Part shown: positions 23,440 to 32,655 of the stretch, piece by piece
How the letters are laid out: each line of letters begins with the position of its first letter
Numbering within the stretch: position 1 is the first letter of the stretch
Assembly (NCBI GenBank): GCA_030605565.1
Contig: JAUWIB010000065.1
Location: 1 to 32,940, forward strand
Direction: 5' to 3'
DNA length: 32,940 bases
From: a bacterium
GTDB taxonomy: Bacteria > Zixibacteria > MSB-5A5 > GN15 > FEB-12
Program-made: the position numbers and the translations under genes
Notes under the pieces: generated by a model
Seen by the model: the letters and a program-made list of their open reading frames with translations, nothing else
Told to the model about the DNA's origin: nothing
Databases searched by the model: none

Positions 23440-26400
23440 ATGAAGTTTGACCTGCTGAAAGACGATTTCTCAATCCCCACCGCCGAGGAGAAGATCCTGG
23501 CGTTCTGGGACACACGCAGTGTGTTTCATCAGTGTAATGAACTGGCCAAGGATAAGCCGCACTTCGTCTTCTACGAGGGACCACCCACAGCCAACGGTGT
23601 GCCGGGCATTCACCATGTTATCTCGCGCACTATCAAGGATCTGATTTGCCGCTACAAATCGATGCAGGGATTCCGGGTCGACCGCAAGGGTGGCTGGGAT
23701 ACCCACGGTCTGCCGGTGGAAATCGAGGTTGAGAAACAACTCAAGCTCGAAAACAAAGCCCAGGTTCTCGATTACGGCGTGGCCGAGTTCAATCAGAAGT
23801 GTAGAGAGTCGGTGTTCAAGTACCTCGACCTGTGGAACAAAATCACCCGGCGCATGGGCTATTGGATCGATCTTGACGGTGCTTACGTAACACTCACCAA
23901 CGAGTACATCGAGTCGGTCTGGTGGATTCTCAAGAACTTCTTCGACCGCGACTTGATCTACAAAGGTTACAAAACCCTGCCCTTCTGTCCGCGCTGTGAG
24001 ACCGGTCTGTCCAGTCACGAAGTGGCGCAGGGGTACCAGTTGATCAAAGACCCGTCAATTTTCGTGAAAGTCAAAGCGGCCGATGAGGATTTCAGCTACC
24101 TCGTCTGGACGACTACACCATGGACGCTTCCGTCGAATGCCGCTCTTTGCATGCATCCCGAGGCCGATTACGTTTTGGTCGAGCATGAGGGTGAAAGACT
24201 GGTGCTGGCGGAAGCGTTAGTGGTGAAAGTTCTGGGTGAACAGAAAGAACCGCTTCAGCGCTTTAAGGGCGCCGATTTTCTGAAGCGTAAGTACACCCCG
24301 TTGTTTGACATATTTGCGGACAAAGCGGATAAGGCATTCTATGTCGTCAACGCCGACTTCGTCACTCTTGAAGACGGCACCGGTATTGTCCATATAGCGC
24401 CCGGCTTCGGAGCCGATGACTACGAGATCGGACAGAAGTACGGCCTGCCGGTGTTGCAGGCGATAGAGGCCAATGGCATCTTCAAGGAGTTCACCGGCAA
24501 ATACGCCGGGATGTTCATCAAAGACGCCGATCCGATCATTATCAAAGACCTCAAATCAGCCGGACGCTTGTTCAAAAAGGAGTTATACGAACATAACTAT
24601 CCGTTCTGCTGGCGCTGTGATTCCCCGCTGGTGTATATCGCGCGCCAGTCCTGGTATCTGAAAACGACACAGTTCAAGGATCAGTTGATCAAAAACAATA
24701 ACGCTATCAACTGGCACCCCGATGAAATTCGTAGCGGCCGTATGCTCGACTGGCTCGAGAACAACGTCGATTGGGCGCTCTCGCGCGAGCGGTTCTGGGG
24801 GACACCTATCCCGATCTGGGTCTGCGATGACGACAAGTGTGGGAAGATGCGGGCGGTTGGGTCCATCGAACAACTGCGCAAGGAAGCAAAAGAGCTGTCC
24901 GAACCGGTGGAACTGCACAAACCGATGATGGATGAGGTCAAGCTCACGTGTGAATGCGGTTCGGAAATGACCCGCATCTCGGAAGTGCTCGACTGCTGGT
25001 TTGATGCCGGCTCCATGCCGTATGCCCAGTGGCACTACCCGTTCGAGAACGAAGATGAGTTCAAGATAAAGTACCCGGCCGATTTCATCAGCGAGGCGGT
25101 CGATCAGACGCGTGGCTGGTTCTACTCTATGATAGCTATTTCGACCATCCTGTACGATCAGCCGCCGTTTAAGAACAACGTGGTGATGGAGTTCATTCTG
25201 GACAAAGAGGGCAAGAAAATGTCCAAGCATAAGGGGAACGTTACCGATCCATTCGAAACGATGGACCGATTCGGCGCCGACCCGACCCGCTGGTATCTTC
25301 TGGCCAACTCGGCTGTCTGGGTGCCGACCAAGTTCGACCCCGACGCCCTGGCCGAGGTAGTGCGCAAATACTTCGACACTCTGCGCAATACCTACTCGTT
25401 TTTTGCTCTCTACGCCAACATCGATGAAATCGTCGACAAAGCGGCCGAAACAGGTGTGTCGATCGAGACCTACCTTGACAAGAAAGCCGGTGAGCCTGAT
25501 CGGTTTGACCGCTGGATCATGTCGCGATACCAGAGCCTGGTCAAAGATGTTGCCGGCAATCTTGACAAATACGAGATCACCAGGCCGGTGCGCGCGATTC
25601 AGCATTTCGTTATCGAGGAGCTGTCCAACTGGTATGTGCGCAATAACCGGCGTCGTTTCTGGGCCAAAGCTGATGACCCCGCCAAGATGCGCGCCTACCT
25701 CACCTTATATCGCGTCTTGCTTGGTGTCTGCAAGCTGACGGCCCCGGTGACGCCGTTCACCAGCGAAATGCTGTTCAAAGAACTGATGGGGTCAGGCAAA
25801 GAAGCGCCGCTTTCAGTGCACATGACCTCGTTCCCCGAGCCGGATGAAGCCCTGATCGATCCGTCGTTGGAACAGACTATGGGAGTCATAGAGAAGATCG
25901 TTTCACTTGGACGCGCCGCTCGGTCACGCAAGAACCTCAAGGTGCGTCAGCCGCTGGCAGAGCTTCTGGTGACCCTCCCGAACCGAATGAGTTTCGACAA
26001 GCTGGAAGGGTTCCTCGATATTCTCAGAGACGAGTTGAATGTGAAGAAGGTCTCCGCCGCCGGTCGGCTCGATCAATATGTCAGCTATTCGGCAAAGCTG
26101 AACTTCAAAGCGGCCGGTCCGAGGCTGGGTGGGGATGTGAAAAAAGCGGCCGAACTGCTGAGCCGACTGACCTCAGATCAGGTTCGCGAGGGGGAACAAT
26201 CCGGTGAGTTTAAGATTGCCATCGATGGTCGAGAGATCGTACTTTCATCAGAAGAAGTCCATGTCGTCCGGATGGAAAAAGAAGGTTTCGCCGTGGAGTC
26301 GGACGGCGGTTTGTCGGTCGCCCTGGTAACAGAGTTGAGCGAGGAACTTTTGCAGGAAGGCTTTGCCCGCGAACTGGTCAACAAAATTCAGAACATGCGC

Positions 26401-26617: not shown

Positions 26618-27010
26618 ATGCGTAAGACCGAGTTGGAAAAATTCGAGAAGCTGCTGATGGCCAAGAAAAAGGCGCTTCTGAAGGAAATGGGGATATTGAT
26701 GGAGTCGCATATCTCTTCCACCATCAAAGACTCCACCGGCGATCTGTCGTCATACTCTTATCACATGGCGGATCAGGGAACCGATGCCATGGAGCGTGAA
26801 CTGGCCTTCATGTTTGCCTCCAAGTCCGGGCGGCTGGTTTACCACATCGAAGAGGCGCTGCGTCGCGTCAAAGACAACACTTACGGTAAGTGCCTTTCGT
26901 GCGGCAAGCAAATCAACAAGGAGCGACTCGATGCGGTACCCCATGCGCGGCTCTGTATTGAGTGCAAATCAACCGAAGAGGAAAAACGCTCTGGTCCCCA
27001 AAAGCGCTAA
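26618..27010 (+). CDS. TraR/DksA-family zinc-finger protein
   Basis: The 130-residue protein has a coiled-coil N-terminus, the acidic motif ADQGTDAMERE at its tip (Asp52, Asp56), and a four-Cys zinc finger (Cys92, Cys95, Cys113, Cys116; CLSCG...CIEC). DksA-type proteins reach into the RNA polymerase secondary channel and, often with ppGpp, adjust promoter activity. GGAG sits nine bases ahead of ATG 26618, which is 13 bp after ileS. The ileS-dksA/traR-lspA order is frequent in bacteria outside Proteobacteria. Whether it is a true DksA or another family member cannot be decided here. Confidence 0.88.
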   Translation: MRKTELEKFEKLLMAKKKALLKEMGILMESHISSTIKDSTGDLSSYSYHMADQGTDAMERELAFMFASKSGRLVYHIEEALRRVKDNTYGKCLSCGKQINKERLDAVPHARLCIECKSTEEEKRSGPQKR

Positions 27011-27539
27011 AAGTATCCTCTGGCCGATCGTCATTGTCCTCTCGGTTCTGCTTGCAGACCAGATTTCCAAGATTCTGGCGCTCCGATACCTCGCCGAAAC
27101 CGAATCGGTGGCTGTGCTGGGCCGTTTTCTCAAGTTTACCCTGGTCTACAACGAGGGGGGCGCCATGGGCACCAACCTCGGGTCCTCCACCTACTATCTG
27201 ATCGCTTCGATTCTGATTCTGCTCTTCGTCATGTACTACATCTACCTGGCGCGCCGCGACCGCACGCTGGCGTTCACGCTGTCGTTCGTGGCCGGTGGGG
27301 CGCTGGGGAACATCATCGATCGCATCCGTCTCGGCAAGGTAGTCGACTTCATCGATGTGGACATTCCCGACGTGAGCCTGTTCGGTCGTGAGTTGGAACG
27401 TTGGTGGACATTCAACATCGCCGACAGCGCCATCACCTGCGCGATCGTGGTGCTGTTGGTGCGGGTGGTCTTTGTGCGAGCGCAACCAGTCAAACCTGTC
27501 GAACATTCCGAGACCGCACCACATCCGCCGTCGTTCTAG
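26958..27539 (+). CDS. lspA: Signal peptidase II (lipoprotein signal peptidase)
   Basis: LspA removes signal peptides from lipoproteins in the inner membrane. The motifs are clear: LLADQISK in the first membrane helix, YNEGGAMG, GGALGNIIDRIRLGKVVDFIDV (one catalytic Asp) and WWTFNIADSAI (the second). Four membrane helices are visible. The start is uncertain: ATG 26943 and TTG 26958 lack ribosome sites, whereas CTG 26991 is preceded by GAAGAGGAA at a good distance and gives a normal N-terminus. All overlap the dksA-like gene, so translation is coupled. The product would process envelope lipoproteins such as the SpoIID protein at 1747. The last 52 bp of its conserved core are duplicated at 29556-29607. 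Confidence 0.9.
   Translation: MSANQPKRKNALVPKSAKSILWPIVIVLSVLLADQISKILALRYLAETESVAVLGRFLKFTLVYNEGGAMGTNLGSSTYYLIASILILLFVMYYIYLARRDRTLAFTLSFVAGGALGNIIDRIRLGKVVDFIDVDIPDVSLFGRELERWWTFNIADSAITCAIVVLLVRVVFVRAQPVKPVEHSETAPHPPSF
27428..27479 (+). repeat. 52-bp direct repeat, left copy (inside lspA 3' end)
   Basis: These 52 bases are identical to 29556-29607, starting CGCCATCACCTGCGCGATCG and ending GTCTTTGTGCGA. They encode the last membrane helix of LspA (AITCAIVVLLVRVVFVR). The match ends sharply on both sides at nucleotide level. The 2.1 kb between the copies contains the unknown membrane-protein genes. Confidence 0.95.
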
Positions 27540-27586
27540 ATGGGGGATAGTTTATGAACTATTCACCTATACCTTGGATGCCACGG

Positions 27587-27608
27587 AAAGCTAAAGACAG
27601 CTTTTTTT
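27587..27608 (+). terminator. Intrinsic terminator after lspA
   Basis: AAAGCT (27587-27592) pairs with AGCTTT (27599-27604) and runs straight into seven T (27602-27608). It would end the ileS-dksA-lspA transcript 50-70 bp after the lspA stop. Confidence 0.7.
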
Positions 27609-27741
27609 GCTTGCGAAGGACAGTTAGCACCATTATACTTGAAGTCCAATGCATAATAATGTGGGAACGAATGACTCAGACCTTTCTGTCTGGGGGTCGG
27701 AGGACATAGGACAACTAAGTCGCTGGAATGCCCCGGCTTCC

Positions 27742-27888
27742 TTATACATTGGCGGACTTACGGTCCTTCGAGGAAGTCCGCTGGCGTCTGGGATTTCGCA
27801 TATTGCGGATAAAGATCACAGCGACAACGGCGATCCCGACTGCATATGCTATCCCAAGCAGAATCTGGTCTATAGGAATGTCGGCCAT
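27742..27888 (-). CDS. 48-residue single-pass membrane ORF, similar to the N-terminus of the protein at 28575
   Basis: Read on the minus strand from ATG 27888 to TAA 27742, the product has one hydrophobic helix (DQILLGIAYAVGIAVVAVIF) and a basic tail (NPRRQRTSSKDRKS). This closely parallels the first 45 residues of the 28575-29522 protein (TLLAALYAGGIILVAVVYLR, NPRKQ, then Ser/Lys-rich). LL..AYA.GI..VAV...R...NPR.Q is shared. It could be a small membrane protein or the remnant of a paralogue. No Shine-Dalgarno is obvious. It lies within the segment bounded by the lspA repeats. Confidence 0.5.
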   Translation of the reverse strand: MADIPIDQILLGIAYAVGIAVVAVIFIRNMRNPRRQRTSSKDRKSANV

Positions 27889-28016
27889 AGTAGTTATATC
27901 GAATCTGTCGGCTTCAACCTTAGGGTTGAGGCGAAAATGTTGAATTCTTTAACAGGTGACCAACTCCTGAACGACACCGACCGGTGCACCTGCTGCTTCG
28001 GAAGGAATGTTCTGTA

Positions 28017-28505
28017 ATGCCCCCACCTATGCTTGCACCCGACGATCAGACCAAAGCGCGAGAACTTGTCTCCTATTTTGTAGTATTCTACGGTTTTGCC
28101 TTTATACTGATCTTCGGCAGGTCGGTTGAGCTTTTTCTTCAGTATCCGAATTTCTGGTATTTCGGCCCGCTTATCTGGGCCGGTATCGCTATCTTCTTTG
28201 GTGTGCATGCAGTGGCGCTGGTACGGATCCTGTTGCCGTACACTAAGTATGATCTGTTTGATGCCAAAGACTATCGTGATTGGTTTCGTCAACGGTTCTG
28301 GTCTTTTCTGTTCATCTTTCTGTCACACACCTATTGTGTCTTACTTCCTTTCGGCGCTCTTTACCTGTCCAAAAACAAGTACACGGAGATTGACGTCTCC
28401 GTGAATTATGCTGGGTATTTTTGGTTGGATTTTTTTATGCTAGGGGTGATCGCCCTGATGGGCAGATGGCATAAAGTCAGGCAGGATGAGGCAGAACTGA
28501 CATGA
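28017..28505 (+). CDS. Small multi-pass membrane protein of unknown function
   Basis: From ATG 28017 (GGAAGGA ten bases ahead) the product is 162 residues. It has about four membrane helices: SYFVVFYGFAFILIFGRSV, LIWAGIAIFFGVHAVALV, FWSFLFIFLSHTYCVLLPFG and FWLDFFMLGVIALMG. The loop between helices 2 and 3 is charged (YTKYDLFDAKDYRDWFRQR). I do not recognise a family. An in-frame ATG 33 bp earlier has no ribosome site. It precedes another unknown membrane-anchored protein by 69 bp in the same orientation, inside the segment bounded by the lspA 3' duplication. Base composition is more AT-rich than lspA. Confidence 0.68.
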   Translation: MPPPMLAPDDQTKARELVSYFVVFYGFAFILIFGRSVELFLQYPNFWYFGPLIWAGIAIFFGVHAVALVRILLPYTKYDLFDAKDYRDWFRQRFWSFLFIFLSHTYCVLLPFGALYLSKNKYTEIDVSVNYAGYFWLDFFMLGVIALMGRWHKVRQDEAELT

Positions 28506-28574
28506 GCACAATGGAAAATTGGTCTGGCCAACGGGAAGTTTTTTCCGTATCTTTAACCGGAAGGTTGTTTTGAC

Positions 28575-29522
28575 ATGAATCTTGAGAACACCTTGTTAGC
28601 CGCTCTTTACGCTGGCGGCATTATACTCGTCGCAGTAGTGTACTTGCGCACCGTTCTGAATCCACGGAAACAGCATAGACCGGTGCCGTCGTCAAGTCGT
28701 CCAAAGGCGTCATCTGGTGAGCCAGTGGCCAGCCCCGGCGACCTTCCCGGTAGTATATTTCTTGACTTAAAGGAAATCTATGATCTCTTGGCGGATCCGA
28801 AAAACCCTCAGGCCAGCCGTGCGACAGCAATCAGGAAAGCCCAGGACAAGCTTGGGAGCATTTCCGAAGGTCTTGTGGAGTTCCTGGCGAAGGACGGGCA
28901 CAATTCTCTTAGTTATGACCCAAAGGATACTTTGATCGTACAGAACGTTGCCGTCTGTCTCTACACATTTCTTGAGCAAATCAAGAACGAGCGGAGGCGT
29001 ACTACGCTCGAACCCACTTACCCGAAGGCTATATGGCGATTGGCCCGGGCAATCAACGGTTACTTTCAACATGATTTTGGCAGAGAACGCTTCATTCTCG
29101 ATCTGATCAGCTGCAAGGAGAGGATATACCTTTCACTTTACCGCAACTCCGAGTGGAATGAGGAGGTTACGGCCAAATTCGTTGCGGACTTTGCCCCGCC
29201 ACAACCTCGCCTGCGGACCAAGGAAGAAGTCGCTGCATATCTCCTTCAACTGGAGAGTTGTTGGCTTCATCAGGAGTGTGAACTGCGAAAGGTCAATCCC
29301 AAATACATCATACCGCTCTTCACAGTTAGAAACATCCTGCGTCATTGCGAAAGGAATTTCGAGAACGATACGAGTGCTCATGCCGTCGACCGCATCTCGA
29401 ACTATTTGGCGGACGGATCATTCAAGCAGCTTTGCTTCATGGGCCTCACTTACAATCCCAAAATGGTAGCAGATACCTACGGGGAAATATTCAGGACCTT
29501 GGACCGGATTGCGGCTGTTTAG
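28575..29522 (+). CDS. Membrane-anchored cytoplasmic protein of unknown function
   Basis: The 315-residue protein has one N-terminal membrane helix (residues about 7-26) followed by a basic NPRKQ stop-transfer stretch. A Ser/Pro/Lys-rich linker runs to about residue 58, and a soluble, mostly helical domain fills the rest (IFLDLKEIYDLLADPKN, RRTTLEPTYPKAIWRLARAING, SCWLHQECELRKVNPKYIIPLF). No catalytic motif or known domain is evident. By the positive-inside rule the domain should be cytoplasmic. GGAAGG lies about ten bases ahead of ATG 28575. It ends 33 bp before the duplicated lspA tail. Its N-terminus resembles the minus-strand ORF at 27742-27888, so this segment carries two copies of that membrane anchor. 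Confidence 0.7.
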   Translation: MNLENTLLAALYAGGIILVAVVYLRTVLNPRKQHRPVPSSSRPKASSGEPVASPGDLPGSIFLDLKEIYDLLADPKNPQASRATAIRKAQDKLGSISEGLVEFLAKDGHNSLSYDPKDTLIVQNVAVCLYTFLEQIKNERRRTTLEPTYPKAIWRLARAINGYFQHDFGRERFILDLISCKERIYLSLYRNSEWNEEVTAKFVADFAPPQPRLRTKEEVAAYLLQLESCWLHQECELRKVNPKYIIPLFTVRNILRHCERNFENDTSAHAVDRISNYLADGSFKQLCFMGLTYNPKMVADTYGEIFRTLDRIAAV

Positions 29523-29553
29523 TCTTTTCGACGCGGCCTCTCTCTCAAACCTT

Positions 29554-29655
29554 GACGCCATCACCTGCGCGATCGTGGTGCTGTTGGTGCGGGTGGTCTT
29601 TGTGCGACACCCCAAAGAAGTCGAATCAACGGAGACGTCACCCCGCCAATTCTAA
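29554..29655 (+). pseudogene. Duplicated 3' end of lspA with a divergent tail
   Basis: In frame, this stretch reads DAITCAIVVLLVRVVFVR and then HPKEVESTETSPRQF and stop (TAA 29653-29655). The first part is encoded by 52 bases identical to lspA. The tail is different DNA but aligns with the LspA tail (AQPVKPVEHSETAPHPPSF): V-E, E-T, P and a final F are shared. It is therefore a true, separately evolved lspA 3' end rather than a simple recent copy. The upstream part of lspA is missing; weak similarity (SLF at 29521) just before it may be chance. Confidence 0.85.
29556..29607 (+). repeat. 52-bp direct repeat, right copy
   Basis: Identical to 27428-27479 in lspA. It marks the right edge of the 2.1-kb segment carrying unknown membrane proteins. 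Confidence 0.95.
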
Positions 29656-29755
29656 CAAACTCCCAGCTTGCCATCGGGGACGCTATCAGCTATGTTCACA
29701 CGGCAAAGGCACGGAACAATTGTAGAATTATCTCATAGTCCAGTTTGGAGGATGT

Positions 29756-32071
29756 ATGTACAGAGCGGCCCGACTCTTGATCGCGACAGCACTGATTGTG
29801 TCGACAGTTTCCCCCGGCATTCTGAGTCAGACGGATTCGAAGCAGACCGAACCGACAGGGCGCATCAGCGGGCGCGTGGTGGATGGTTCGACCCAATCCC
29901 CGGTGATCGGCGCCAGCGTCCTGATAGCCGGCACTGAACGCGGCGCCGCCACCGACGATGACGGTAAATTCACAATCAAGAACATACCGGTCGGCAGCTA
30001 TGTGGTCGCGACACGGGCTGTCGGTTACGAGCCGCTGAGCAAGACTGATATCATCGTCCGGCCGGGAAGAATTACATACATTACATCCGAGCTTTCGGTC
30101 AGCGCCGTCCAGGTGTCGGACATCGTGGTGTCGGCAGGATATTTCGCTCAGGAGGACAGCAAACCGACCAGTTCCACGACCTTTTCGGGCGAGGAGATCC
30201 GGCGCGCGCCCGGCTCGGCCGGTGATGTCAGCCGCATTATCCACGCCTTGCCGAGCATCGCCAAGGTCGACGACCAAATCAACAGTCTGGTCGTTCGGGG
30301 TGGCAGCCCGTCCGAAAACGCCTTCTACCTCGACAATATCGAAATCCCGAATATTAACCACTACCCGTTGCAGGGAACCACGGGCGGACCGATCAGCCTG
30401 ATCAATGTCGACTTCCTGGATAAAGTAGAATTCTCGGCCGGTGGTTTTCCGTCCAAGTACGGCGATCGCCTGTCCTCGGTGATGGAGCTTACCTTCCGCG
30501 AAGGGAACCGCGAGGAGTTTGACGGCCAGATCGATTTCAATATGGCCGGTGTTGGAGTTGTTCTGGAAGGACCGCTCGCAGGTGGACGCGGTTCGTGGAT
30601 GTTCTCCGGTCGGCGCAGCTATTTGGATTTGTTGGTCGACGCTGTTGGCGTCGGCGTCGCTCCCAGGTATTCGGACTATCAAGGCAAGGTTGTCTACGAT
30701 CTGTCCTCGCGGAGCAAGCTCTCGATCCTGGGAATAGCCGGCGTGGACTACTTTTCCCTTGACAGCTCAACCGCCTGGGATGACTGCAATCAGTTCTATG
30801 GCGATTTCTCAGGCTATGAGCATGCCTTCGGAGCCAACTGGCGCTACCTGTGGGGTGGCAATGGCTACTCCAACACCTCGGTGAGCTACAATGCCATCAA
30901 ATACAAAGGAGACGTTCAGGAGACCAAAAACGGCCGCCATCTGTTCGACCAGAACTCGATTGAGTCCGGTATCAATATTCGCAATATCAACCACTTCCTT
31001 GCCGGCGATAAACATCAATTGGAGTTCGGATTCGATACCAAGTACCTGATGACTGACTTTGACTATCATCTTTACGACTACGTCAATTCCTTCGGTGATA
31101 CAATTCCAGCGCTCATATTGGACAAGTACACTGCGGCGCCGCTGGTGGGGGCGTTTGTCAGCCATATCTGGCAATGGCATCCCAAAATCACCACCACTAT
31201 AGGGCTGCGCTATGACTGGTTCGAATACAACGGGCATGCGCATCTTTCCCCCCGATTCTCGTTCAATTATAGATTCAATCCCCGAACTTCTCTCAGCGGC
31301 GCGGCTGGTGTCTATCGGCAGTTCCTGCCGCTGTCGCTGATGACGCAGCGCGATCAGTTCGTTGACCTGCCCGACCCCATCGCTTATCATGGCATTCTCG
31401 GCGTTAGCCATCTTCTTAGCGATGACACCAGGCTGACCGTCGAAACCTACTACAAGGGGTATGACAACTTCCCTCTCGATCCCGCCCAACCACAGATATT
31501 CCTGGCCGACGAACTCGGCTTTGCGCGCATGCTCGGCAACTTCGAGACGTTGAAAGCCGAAGGCAAAGCCTACGCCGCCGGGATCGAGGCGATCATTCAG
31601 AAAAAGCTGGTGGCAGGTGTCTACGGTTTGCTAGCCGGCTCCTATTCGCGGACGCGCTATCGCGGTTTGGATGGCATGTGGCGTGATCGTCTTTTTGACA
31701 ACAAGGTGAACTTCTCGGTTGAAGGGGGCTACAAGCCGAACAACAAATGGGAATACAGCCTGCGTTGGATATGCGCCGGCGGTCGCCCGCAGACGCCGCT
31801 TGATCTTGACAGGTCAAGGCTTCAGAATGTCAGTGTCCGCGACGCTTCCCGCGTCAACGAGGACCGGATACCGGCCTACCACTCGCTCAATCTGCGTATG
31901 GACCGACGCTACCACTTCAGGAATTCCAGCTTGATTGTCTTCTTCTCAATCTGGAATGCCTACAATCGCAAGAATGTCTCGACGTACTATTGGAACGAAG
32001 TGGAACGCAAAGAGGATGTCCTCTACCAATGGTCTATACTCCCAGTTCTCGGGCTGGAATACGAGTTCTAA
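29756..32071 (+). CDS. TonB-dependent receptor with N-terminal carboxypeptidase-regulatory domain
   Basis: The 771-residue outer-membrane protein has a signal peptide (LLIATALIVSTVSPGILSQ) and a carboxypeptidase-regulatory-like beta-sandwich (GRISGRVVDGSTQSPVIGAS..., about residues 38-120). A plug domain follows (GSAGDVSRIIHALPSIAKVDDQ, LVVRGGSPSENAFYLDNIEI). The remaining 550 residues form the beta-barrel, with alternating aromatic strands and a terminal Phe (LGLEYEF) for BAM recognition. Such receptors take up or export large substrates using TonB energy; the ligand cannot be deduced. GGAGG lies four bases ahead of ATG 29756. The methyltransferase-like gene starts two bases after its stop. 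Its N-terminal domain resembles that of the VWA fusion at 7418. Confidence 0.92.
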   Translation: MYRAARLLIATALIVSTVSPGILSQTDSKQTEPTGRISGRVVDGSTQSPVIGASVLIAGTERGAATDDDGKFTIKNIPVGSYVVATRAVGYEPLSKTDIIVRPGRITYITSELSVSAVQVSDIVVSAGYFAQEDSKPTSSTTFSGEEIRRAPGSAGDVSRIIHALPSIAKVDDQINSLVVRGGSPSENAFYLDNIEIPNINHYPLQGTTGGPISLINVDFLDKVEFSAGGFPSKYGDRLSSVMELTFREGNREEFDGQIDFNMAGVGVVLEGPLAGGRGSWMFSGRRSYLDLLVDAVGVGVAPRYSDYQGKVVYDLSSRSKLSILGIAGVDYFSLDSSTAWDDCNQFYGDFSGYEHAFGANWRYLWGGNGYSNTSVSYNAIKYKGDVQETKNGRHLFDQNSIESGINIRNINHFLAGDKHQLEFGFDTKYLMTDFDYHLYDYVNSFGDTIPALILDKYTAAPLVGAFVSHIWQWHPKITTTIGLRYDWFEYNGHAHLSPRFSFNYRFNPRTSLSGAAGVYRQFLPLSLMTQRDQFVDLPDPIAYHGILGVSHLLSDDTRLTVETYYKGYDNFPLDPAQPQIFLADELGFARMLGNFETLKAEGKAYAAGIEAIIQKKLVAGVYGLLAGSYSRTRYRGLDGMWRDRLFDNKVNFSVEGGYKPNNKWEYSLRWICAGGRPQTPLDLDRSRLQNVSVRDASRVNEDRIPAYHSLNLRMDRRYHFRNSSLIVFFSIWNAYNRKNVSTYYWNEVERKEDVLYQWSILPVLGLEYEF

Positions 32072-32073
32072 CA

Positions 32074-32655
32074 ATGAGCCTGAGTGACCGGATAATCGGT
32101 ATCATTCATCGCTGGGCAATGGGTCCGGCCACCCGGCGCTGGGCCGTCTCGGTGGTAGGGATGCTCACGTTCCTTGCTATGTGTGTCGTAGTTATTTGGA
32201 GCTCGACCAGAGTGGATGTCTTGATCGGCCTCAGAGTGACCGGCTTCTCCACGCTGCGGCAGATTCTCGGATGGCCCCTGTTGGCTTTTGGCTTCATACT
32301 TATACACTGGACACTAATCTTCTTCATCCGCGAACGAGGAACACCGTTCCCCATGAACCCGCCGCGCAATCTGATTACCAGCGGCCCATACGGTATCACT
32401 CGCAATCCGATGCTGGGTGGGGGGTTCATTTCGTTTTTCGGCATCGGTCTCTTGCTCGGGTCGACAACTCTCTTTCTGATAGCCACGCCTCTTCTTACAG
32501 TTTGCTTCACCGCCTTCGTAACACGTATTGAAGAGCCGGAACTTCGGATGCGCTTCGGTGACGAGTATATCGAGTATACGAAGCAGGTGCCGAGGTTCTT
32601 TCCGGGAACATGGCGGCAGCGCAGGGAAGGCTATAAAACGTGGCGCAAAAGGTGA
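32074..32655 (+). CDS. ICMT/PEMT-type membrane methyltransferase family protein
   Basis: From ATG 32074 the product is 193 residues with about four to five membrane helices. The C-terminal half shows the isoprenylcysteine/phospholipid methyltransferase signature: ITSGPYGITRNPMLGGG (SAM-binding GPY..xRNP) and RIEEPELRMRFGDEYIEYTKQVPRFFP. Members use S-adenosylmethionine to methylate lipids or prenylated groups. The bacterial substrate is usually unknown and none can be inferred here. It starts two bases after the TonB receptor stop, so translation is probably coupled; a start further upstream at 31990 would overlap the receptor by 82 bp and is unlikely. Confidence 0.85.
   Translation: MSLSDRIIGIIHRWAMGPATRRWAVSVVGMLTFLAMCVVVIWSSTRVDVLIGLRVTGFSTLRQILGWPLLAFGFILIHWTLIFFIRERGTPFPMNPPRNLITSGPYGITRNPMLGGGFISFFGIGLLLGSTTLFLIATPLLTVCFTAFVTRIEEPELRMRFGDEYIEYTKQVPRFFPGTWRQRREGYKTWRKR

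Follow-up and report, generated by a model that had tools for sequence, protein, structure and literature searches.

The window analysed here, a stretch of 32,940 nucleotides from a bacterium of the Zixibacteria (GTDB lineage MSB-5A5; GN15; FEB-12; GenBank assembly GCA_030605565.1, contig JAUWIB010000065.1), contains an insertion of 2128 bp at the 3′ end of lspA, the gene of signal peptidase II. The end that lspA now has arrived with the insert, and the original end of the gene is found on the far side, as the right-hand copy of a 52-bp direct repeat followed by its old C-terminal tail (Table 1). Between them lie three predicted genes for membrane proteins, here called S, M and H. On the whole, we think it probable that the segment is an integrase-less mobile islet, similar to a cis-mobilizable element (CIME) and moved in trans, which took the lspA 3′ end as its target.

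The two copies of the repeat start 2128 bp apart and are identical. The initial annotation had noticed that 52 bases of the lspA 3′ end recur downstream, and both the position and the exactness of the second copy are confirmed. An exact 52-mer repeat has a chance of about 4^-52 per position pair, and its recurrence at a spacing of 2 kb is far beyond chance. Using the right copy and its tail as query against the whole genome returned matches at these two places only. From the left copy the reading frame runs on into AQPVKPVEHSETAPHPPSF and a stop codon (tail A), and from the right copy, in frame, into HPKEVESTETSPRQF and a stop codon (tail B). The start codon of lspA is uncertain, with an alternative in-frame ATG a few codons upstream.

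Table 1. Features of the lspA insertion and of related loci (window positions, except where another locus is named).
Feature	Position	Strand	Description
lspA (signal peptidase II)	26943..27539	+	Intact reading frame; Pfam Peptidase_A8, E 2.8e-34; orthologues in Zixiibacteriota
Left 52-bp repeat copy (attL-like)	27428..27479	+	Inside lspA near its 3′ end; exact repeat
Tail A	27480..27539	+	Replacement lspA C-terminus AQPVKPVEHSETAPHPPSF with stop; insert-borne; absent here in L004 and L003
Insertion, 2128 bp	27480..29607 (equivalently 27428-29555)	.	Segment missing from the L004 empty site
Gene S	27742..27888	-	48-aa protein with a single transmembrane segment; divergent from M; probable gene; same place and orientation in G042
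Gene M	28017..28505	+	162 aa; 3-4 hydrophobic segments (hydropathy); multiple transmembrane segments
Gene H	28575..29522	+	315 aa; N-terminal transmembrane helix and helical cytoplasmic part
Right 52-bp repeat copy (attR-like)	29556..29607	+	Exact repeat; orthologous to L004 3615-3666 (47/52)
Tail B	29608..29655	+	Displaced original lspA C-terminus HPKEVESTETSPRQF with stop; fragment severed from its gene
Receptor gene	29756..32071	+	Outer-membrane receptor-like protein, 771 aa; host gene adjoining lspA in the empty site
S-M-H with a further gene	L102 6558-9583 (G042:C230)		S-M-H and a 245-aa predicted secreted protein; directly 3′ of tRNA-Glu(CTC)
tRNA-Glu(CTC)	L102 9584-9657	-	In G042
Tyrosine integrase gene	L120 7351-8670 (G000:C92)		Adjoins or overlaps a tRNA gene; with C70, pair at tRNA-Ser(CGA) and tRNA-Leu(TAA)
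Tyrosine integrase gene	L121 7609-8652 (G000:C70)		Adjoins or overlaps a tRNA gene; with C92, pair at tRNA-Ser(CGA) and tRNA-Leu(TAA)

The state before insertion is preserved in a relative. Among the 80 lspA loci compared, the nearest two, L003 and L004, share about 89-91% DNA identity with the window across ileS, a dksA/traR-like gene and lspA, and their lspA bodies are 87.9-98.6% identical to that of the window at the protein level. L004, which corresponds to G006:C323 in the species set, comes from a congener of the window genome. The initial annotation had anticipated that an empty site, if one existed, would end in a HPKEVES-type tail; this is what L004/G006 carries, its lspA ending in VRHPKEVESPETSPRQS and a stop codon, with the receptor gene directly behind. 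Aligned to window positions 29556-29755, L004 runs through 200 bases free of gaps, matching at 47/52 positions of the repeat, 44/48 positions of the tail (here tail B meets a living lspA tail) and 89/100 positions between the stop codon and the receptor start. The 52-bp sequence is present once in this empty site. The receptor gene directly 3′ of lspA encodes a protein with 67% identity to that of the window in L004 and with 58% identity in G002/L091. Given the uninterrupted L004 run from lspA to the receptor gene and the same order in G002, the window segment is a 2128-bp insertion.

A tandem duplication of lspA is ruled out since the right copy and its tail are orthologous to the single lspA end of L004. 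Nor does the lspA body look like a mosaic, as no clear switch in its identity to L003 or L004 occurs before the repeat. Differences over the 52 bp amount to 0 between the two copies, 5 to L004, 10 to L003 and 16 to L090; the comparison of 0/52 with 5/52 indicates that the lineages of the window and of L004 had already separated when the insertion took place. The insert has a G+C content of about 0.47-0.50, against mostly 0.52-0.60 on its flanks, and a DNA-level search of 53 other family genomes returned no match to it. An element that entered lspA at its 3′ site, came with a tail of its own and displaced the original to a downstream position had been proposed from the window alone: the insertion, the imported tail and the displaced original are borne out by L004, and the mechanism of entry is inferred.

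The two tails are different yet alignable, as had also been proposed, and shuffle tests show their similarity to be real but modest: p is about 0.006-0.01 for the proteins and from 0.0006 (global) to 0.008 (local) for the DNA. Both share V-E, E-T-A/S-P and the end. This gives moderate support, short of proof, to a derivation of tail A from some lspA. Closer similarity to tail B than in shuffled sequences would be expected if the attachment site of an element (attP) carried a piece of some lspA. A living lspA with tail A was not found among the lspA loci of the relatives.

Genes M and H occur together in two of the 132 genomes of the phylum, that of the window and G042. In the latter, which belongs to another genus, the S-M-H module sits between the 3′ end of a tRNA-Glu gene and a radical-SAM gene. 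Its congener G043 keeps the tRNA-Glu and the upstream flank (153 bp, 96%), but its sequence departs from that of G042 within a few bases beyond the end of the tRNA. The radical-SAM gene follows there too (80% protein identity), and S, M, H and the gene of the 245-aa protein are all absent. Neither M nor H was found near this tRNA-Glu in G041, G044 and G045 within the stretches compared. The simplest reading would be a gain of about 3 kb at the tRNA 3′ end in G042, tempered by the fact that intergenic DNA between G042 and G043 diverges anyway.

It is the anatomy of the lspA locus that leads us to favour an islet: a restored target, a displaced original and an empty site together are the signature of an integrated island, and integrative and mobilizable elements (IMEs) and CIMEs provide precedents. 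A decayed or non-autonomous integrative element of 2128 bp, with three membrane-protein genes and without a recombinase, would have carried in its circular form a 52-bp lspA-like attachment sequence, and this would have recombined with the identical sequence in chromosomal lspA. Since the attachment sequence of the islet would run on into an lspA tail and stop codon of its own, presumably from another lspA allele, lspA would stay intact with an exchanged C-terminus, and the far end would hold the original tail as a displaced half-site. The recombinase may have come from elsewhere in trans, or the islet may once have carried an integrase that was since lost.

Several observations weigh against such an islet. 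Neither the insert nor the surroundings of lspA contain an integrase, the att sequence has no additional copy elsewhere in the genome, and the other Zixiibacteriota lspA loci examined show no convincing duplicated lspA 3′ end. A search for other elements with the same 52-bp ends, which the initial annotation had suggested, likewise found no second one. Within the 52 bp, an inverted-repeat core is not significant (shuffle fraction 0.26), and behind the tRNA-Glu of G042 a displaced tRNA fragment was not found. Finally, the element would have to combine 52 bp identical to host lspA with a strongly diverged tail, an odd pairing in an attP that came from another lineage.

A left copy consisting of host DNA as far as the point of a homologous crossover would account more readily for this last combination. 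On that basis we consider a serious rival, unlikely though far from negligible, in which the segment was captured by homologous recombination from a relative whose lspA natively ended in tail A and was followed by S-M-H. Either a single crossover of a circularised fragment or homology-facilitated illegitimate recombination would have duplicated the last 52 bp, with no dedicated recombinase. Such a capture accounts at once for the 52/52 identity, the diverged but lspA-like tail A, the missing integrase and the missing core site, and what lies downstream of lspA does differ within the genus, the breaks in L003 and L090 falling close to the same point. Precedent exists in single crossovers of circular DNA in which part of the homologous end is missing, and which leave a short duplication at this end; single-crossover and illegitimate products on engineered substrates carry duplications of 109-950 bp (PMC3240628). 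These products resemble the window in that foreign DNA is attached through a single homologous end, of which a short stretch is duplicated, and differ in that no donor locus is known for the insert. What speaks against capture is that the proposed donor arrangement, lspA with tail A and the module, appears in 0 of the 80 lspA loci and 0 of the 53 other family genomes, and that the module of G042 lies behind a tRNA gene, not behind lspA. The illegitimate variant would furthermore require, for the right junction, another joining event without homology 52 bp upstream.

A templated insertion, or long target-site duplication, seems to us improbable. Here the repair of a break in lspA would have used 2.1 kb of foreign DNA as template and then picked up again at a point 52 bp upstream, making both copies host-derived and tail A no more than the first codons of the copied DNA. 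The copies would then be identical by construction, an open frame of about 20 codons before a stop is nothing unusual and no recombinase is required; but tail A resembles an lspA tail (p about 0.0006-0.01), and in G042 the same module has the look of an insertion at a classic integration target. An assembly artefact joining two strain variants in a metagenome-derived contig is very improbable even with a genome in 152 contigs and relatives that are themselves metagenome assemblies, given that the element side of the right junction has no common sequence able to mislead an assembler, that the displaced tail and the host receptor gene keep the collinear arrangement of L004 and that the module forms a coherent set of genes, which G042 conserves.

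Compared with known systems, the islet that we favour is of a kind already described, an integrase-less integrated islet. IMEs use the 3′ ends of tRNA genes and of housekeeping genes (guaA, trmE, rpsI, rplL) without disrupting them, and CIMEs retain attL and attR after loss of their integration and transfer genes (PMC5704250). CIMEs at the 3′ ends of fda, rpsI, rpmG and rplL are known from Streptococcus salivarius, in a class of 1.2-13 kb (PMC7563491). The window segment is similarly a small cargo segment with direct repeats at both ends, one of them in the 3′ end of a housekeeping gene, and these repeats may represent recombinase att sites. As noted at the outset for the segment itself, no integrase is visible: its open reading frames (ORFs) gave no match to recombinase, integrase, transfer or other mobility genes in Pfam, PHROGs and PADLOC, with M and H searched in NCBIfam as well. 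It differs from CIMEs in having no demonstrated origin from an integrative and conjugative element or an IME and no known integrase-bearing partner at lspA; it also replaces the coding tail by a clearly different sequence and stands alone rather than in tandem. Like an IME, it uses the conserved 3′ end of a protein gene, which one of the repeats restores, whereas IMEs carry an integrase and mobilization functions and no integrase is seen in the insert.

Integrated islands, as catalogued by Islander, are defined by a restored target, a displaced fragment and an empty site in a relative (PMC4383910). All three are found at lspA; however, an Islander island must carry a tyrosine integrase gene and lie at a tDNA target, and here the target is a protein gene and there is no integrase. 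Having no integrase gene, the segment is not an autonomous tyrosine-integrase island, in spite of its restored target and displaced fragment. An integron gene cassette was rejected because the 52-bp repeat, inspected by eye, is ordinary coding sequence of lspA and lacks core ends of the type GTTRRRY/RYYYAAC. The absence of terminal inverted repeats argues against a DDE transposon or insertion sequence, and a 52-bp duplication is far longer than usual for the target duplications of such elements.

Four Phage_integrase matches were found in the genome, none on the contig of the window. Two are the tyrosine integrase genes at tRNA-Ser and tRNA-Leu listed in Table 1, and these loci are probable integrated islands; a displaced tRNA end was not found at either within the stretches compared. 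The remaining two may be XerC and XerD. The tyrosine integrases at tRNA genes indicate that recombination of this type occurs in the lineage. A broader proposal, that tiny integrase-less three-gene membrane islets form a family not described before and spread among Zixibacteria by entering tRNA and protein genes at their 3′ ends, with recombinases acting in trans and with a swap of the LspA tail when lspA is the target, strikes us as doubtful.

As to the cargo, the G042 counterpart of gene S is an aligned 39-aa homologue with an IRN motif common to both, and the conserved gene order supports S as a real gene. The G042 homologue of M has 36% identity (E 2.2e-24); M had no significant family match in Pfam, PHROGs, PADLOC or NCBIfam. 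Gene H adjoins M in the same order in G042 (29% identity, E 3e-33). Its best family matches, to Pfam HEPN_Swt1 (E 0.008) and the top PADLOC family (E 0.0095), lie below the cut-off, as does the putAbiC match of the G042 homologue at E 0.09, and a HEPN-like RNxxxH in H is KNxxxH in G042. These weak hints may suggest a relation to HEPN/Abi proteins but do not amount to the significant family match expected of a HEPN/Abi-type defence protein. A single-sequence AlphaFold model of H is all helical, of low confidence (pLDDT 52) and too poor for a structure search. The function of the cargo may be membrane-based, possibly in defence. The leader of about 480 bp between lspA and M has no Rfam match to an RNA element.

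The S-M-H module appears new and rare. Gene H was found in 0/395 and 0/396 sampled genomes of two other phyla and had no match in plasmids, phages or viral contigs; M had none in plasmids. The hits of H in G001 and G059 are to RelA/SpoT-like proteins and due to chance. No full-length relative was detected in the genomes, plasmids, phages and viral contigs searched. Separately, G114 (L103 8364-9723) has a gene distantly related to M (21%, E 2e-5) between uvrA- and leuS-like genes, accompanied there by another partner gene.

At least three arrangements occur in the genus beyond the 3′ end of lspA (L003 4032-4205 and L090 2174-2330, compared with window positions 27428-27539 and 29556-32101). L003 and L090 are without the receptor gene, and their lspA tails are different and weakly resemble each other; the next gene in both is one that we take, from its sequence, to be isoprenylcysteine-methyltransferase-like. 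Different tails together with the missing receptor gene indicate that the lspA end is a recurrent breakpoint, perhaps for the receptor gene too. Further upstream, 150 bp of ileS (window 24147-24296) show 68-71% identity to L003 and L004, which are 86% alike there, against mostly about 83-96% in the rest of ileS. Local recombination in the window lineage or an alignment effect are both possible.

lspA is not named as a target in PMC5704250 or PMC7563491, and a full-text literature search returned no case of it. The 3′ end of this essential gene therefore seems to be an unreported target, adding to the protein genes exploited by integrating elements, and the case, from an uncultured phylum that has been little studied, comes with a clean empty site. 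It illustrates that an insertion can alter the C-terminus of a conserved membrane enzyme and leave the gene unbroken. The rare S-M-H membrane module, found at two different gene 3′ ends, offers a lead for small defence or membrane-linked systems.

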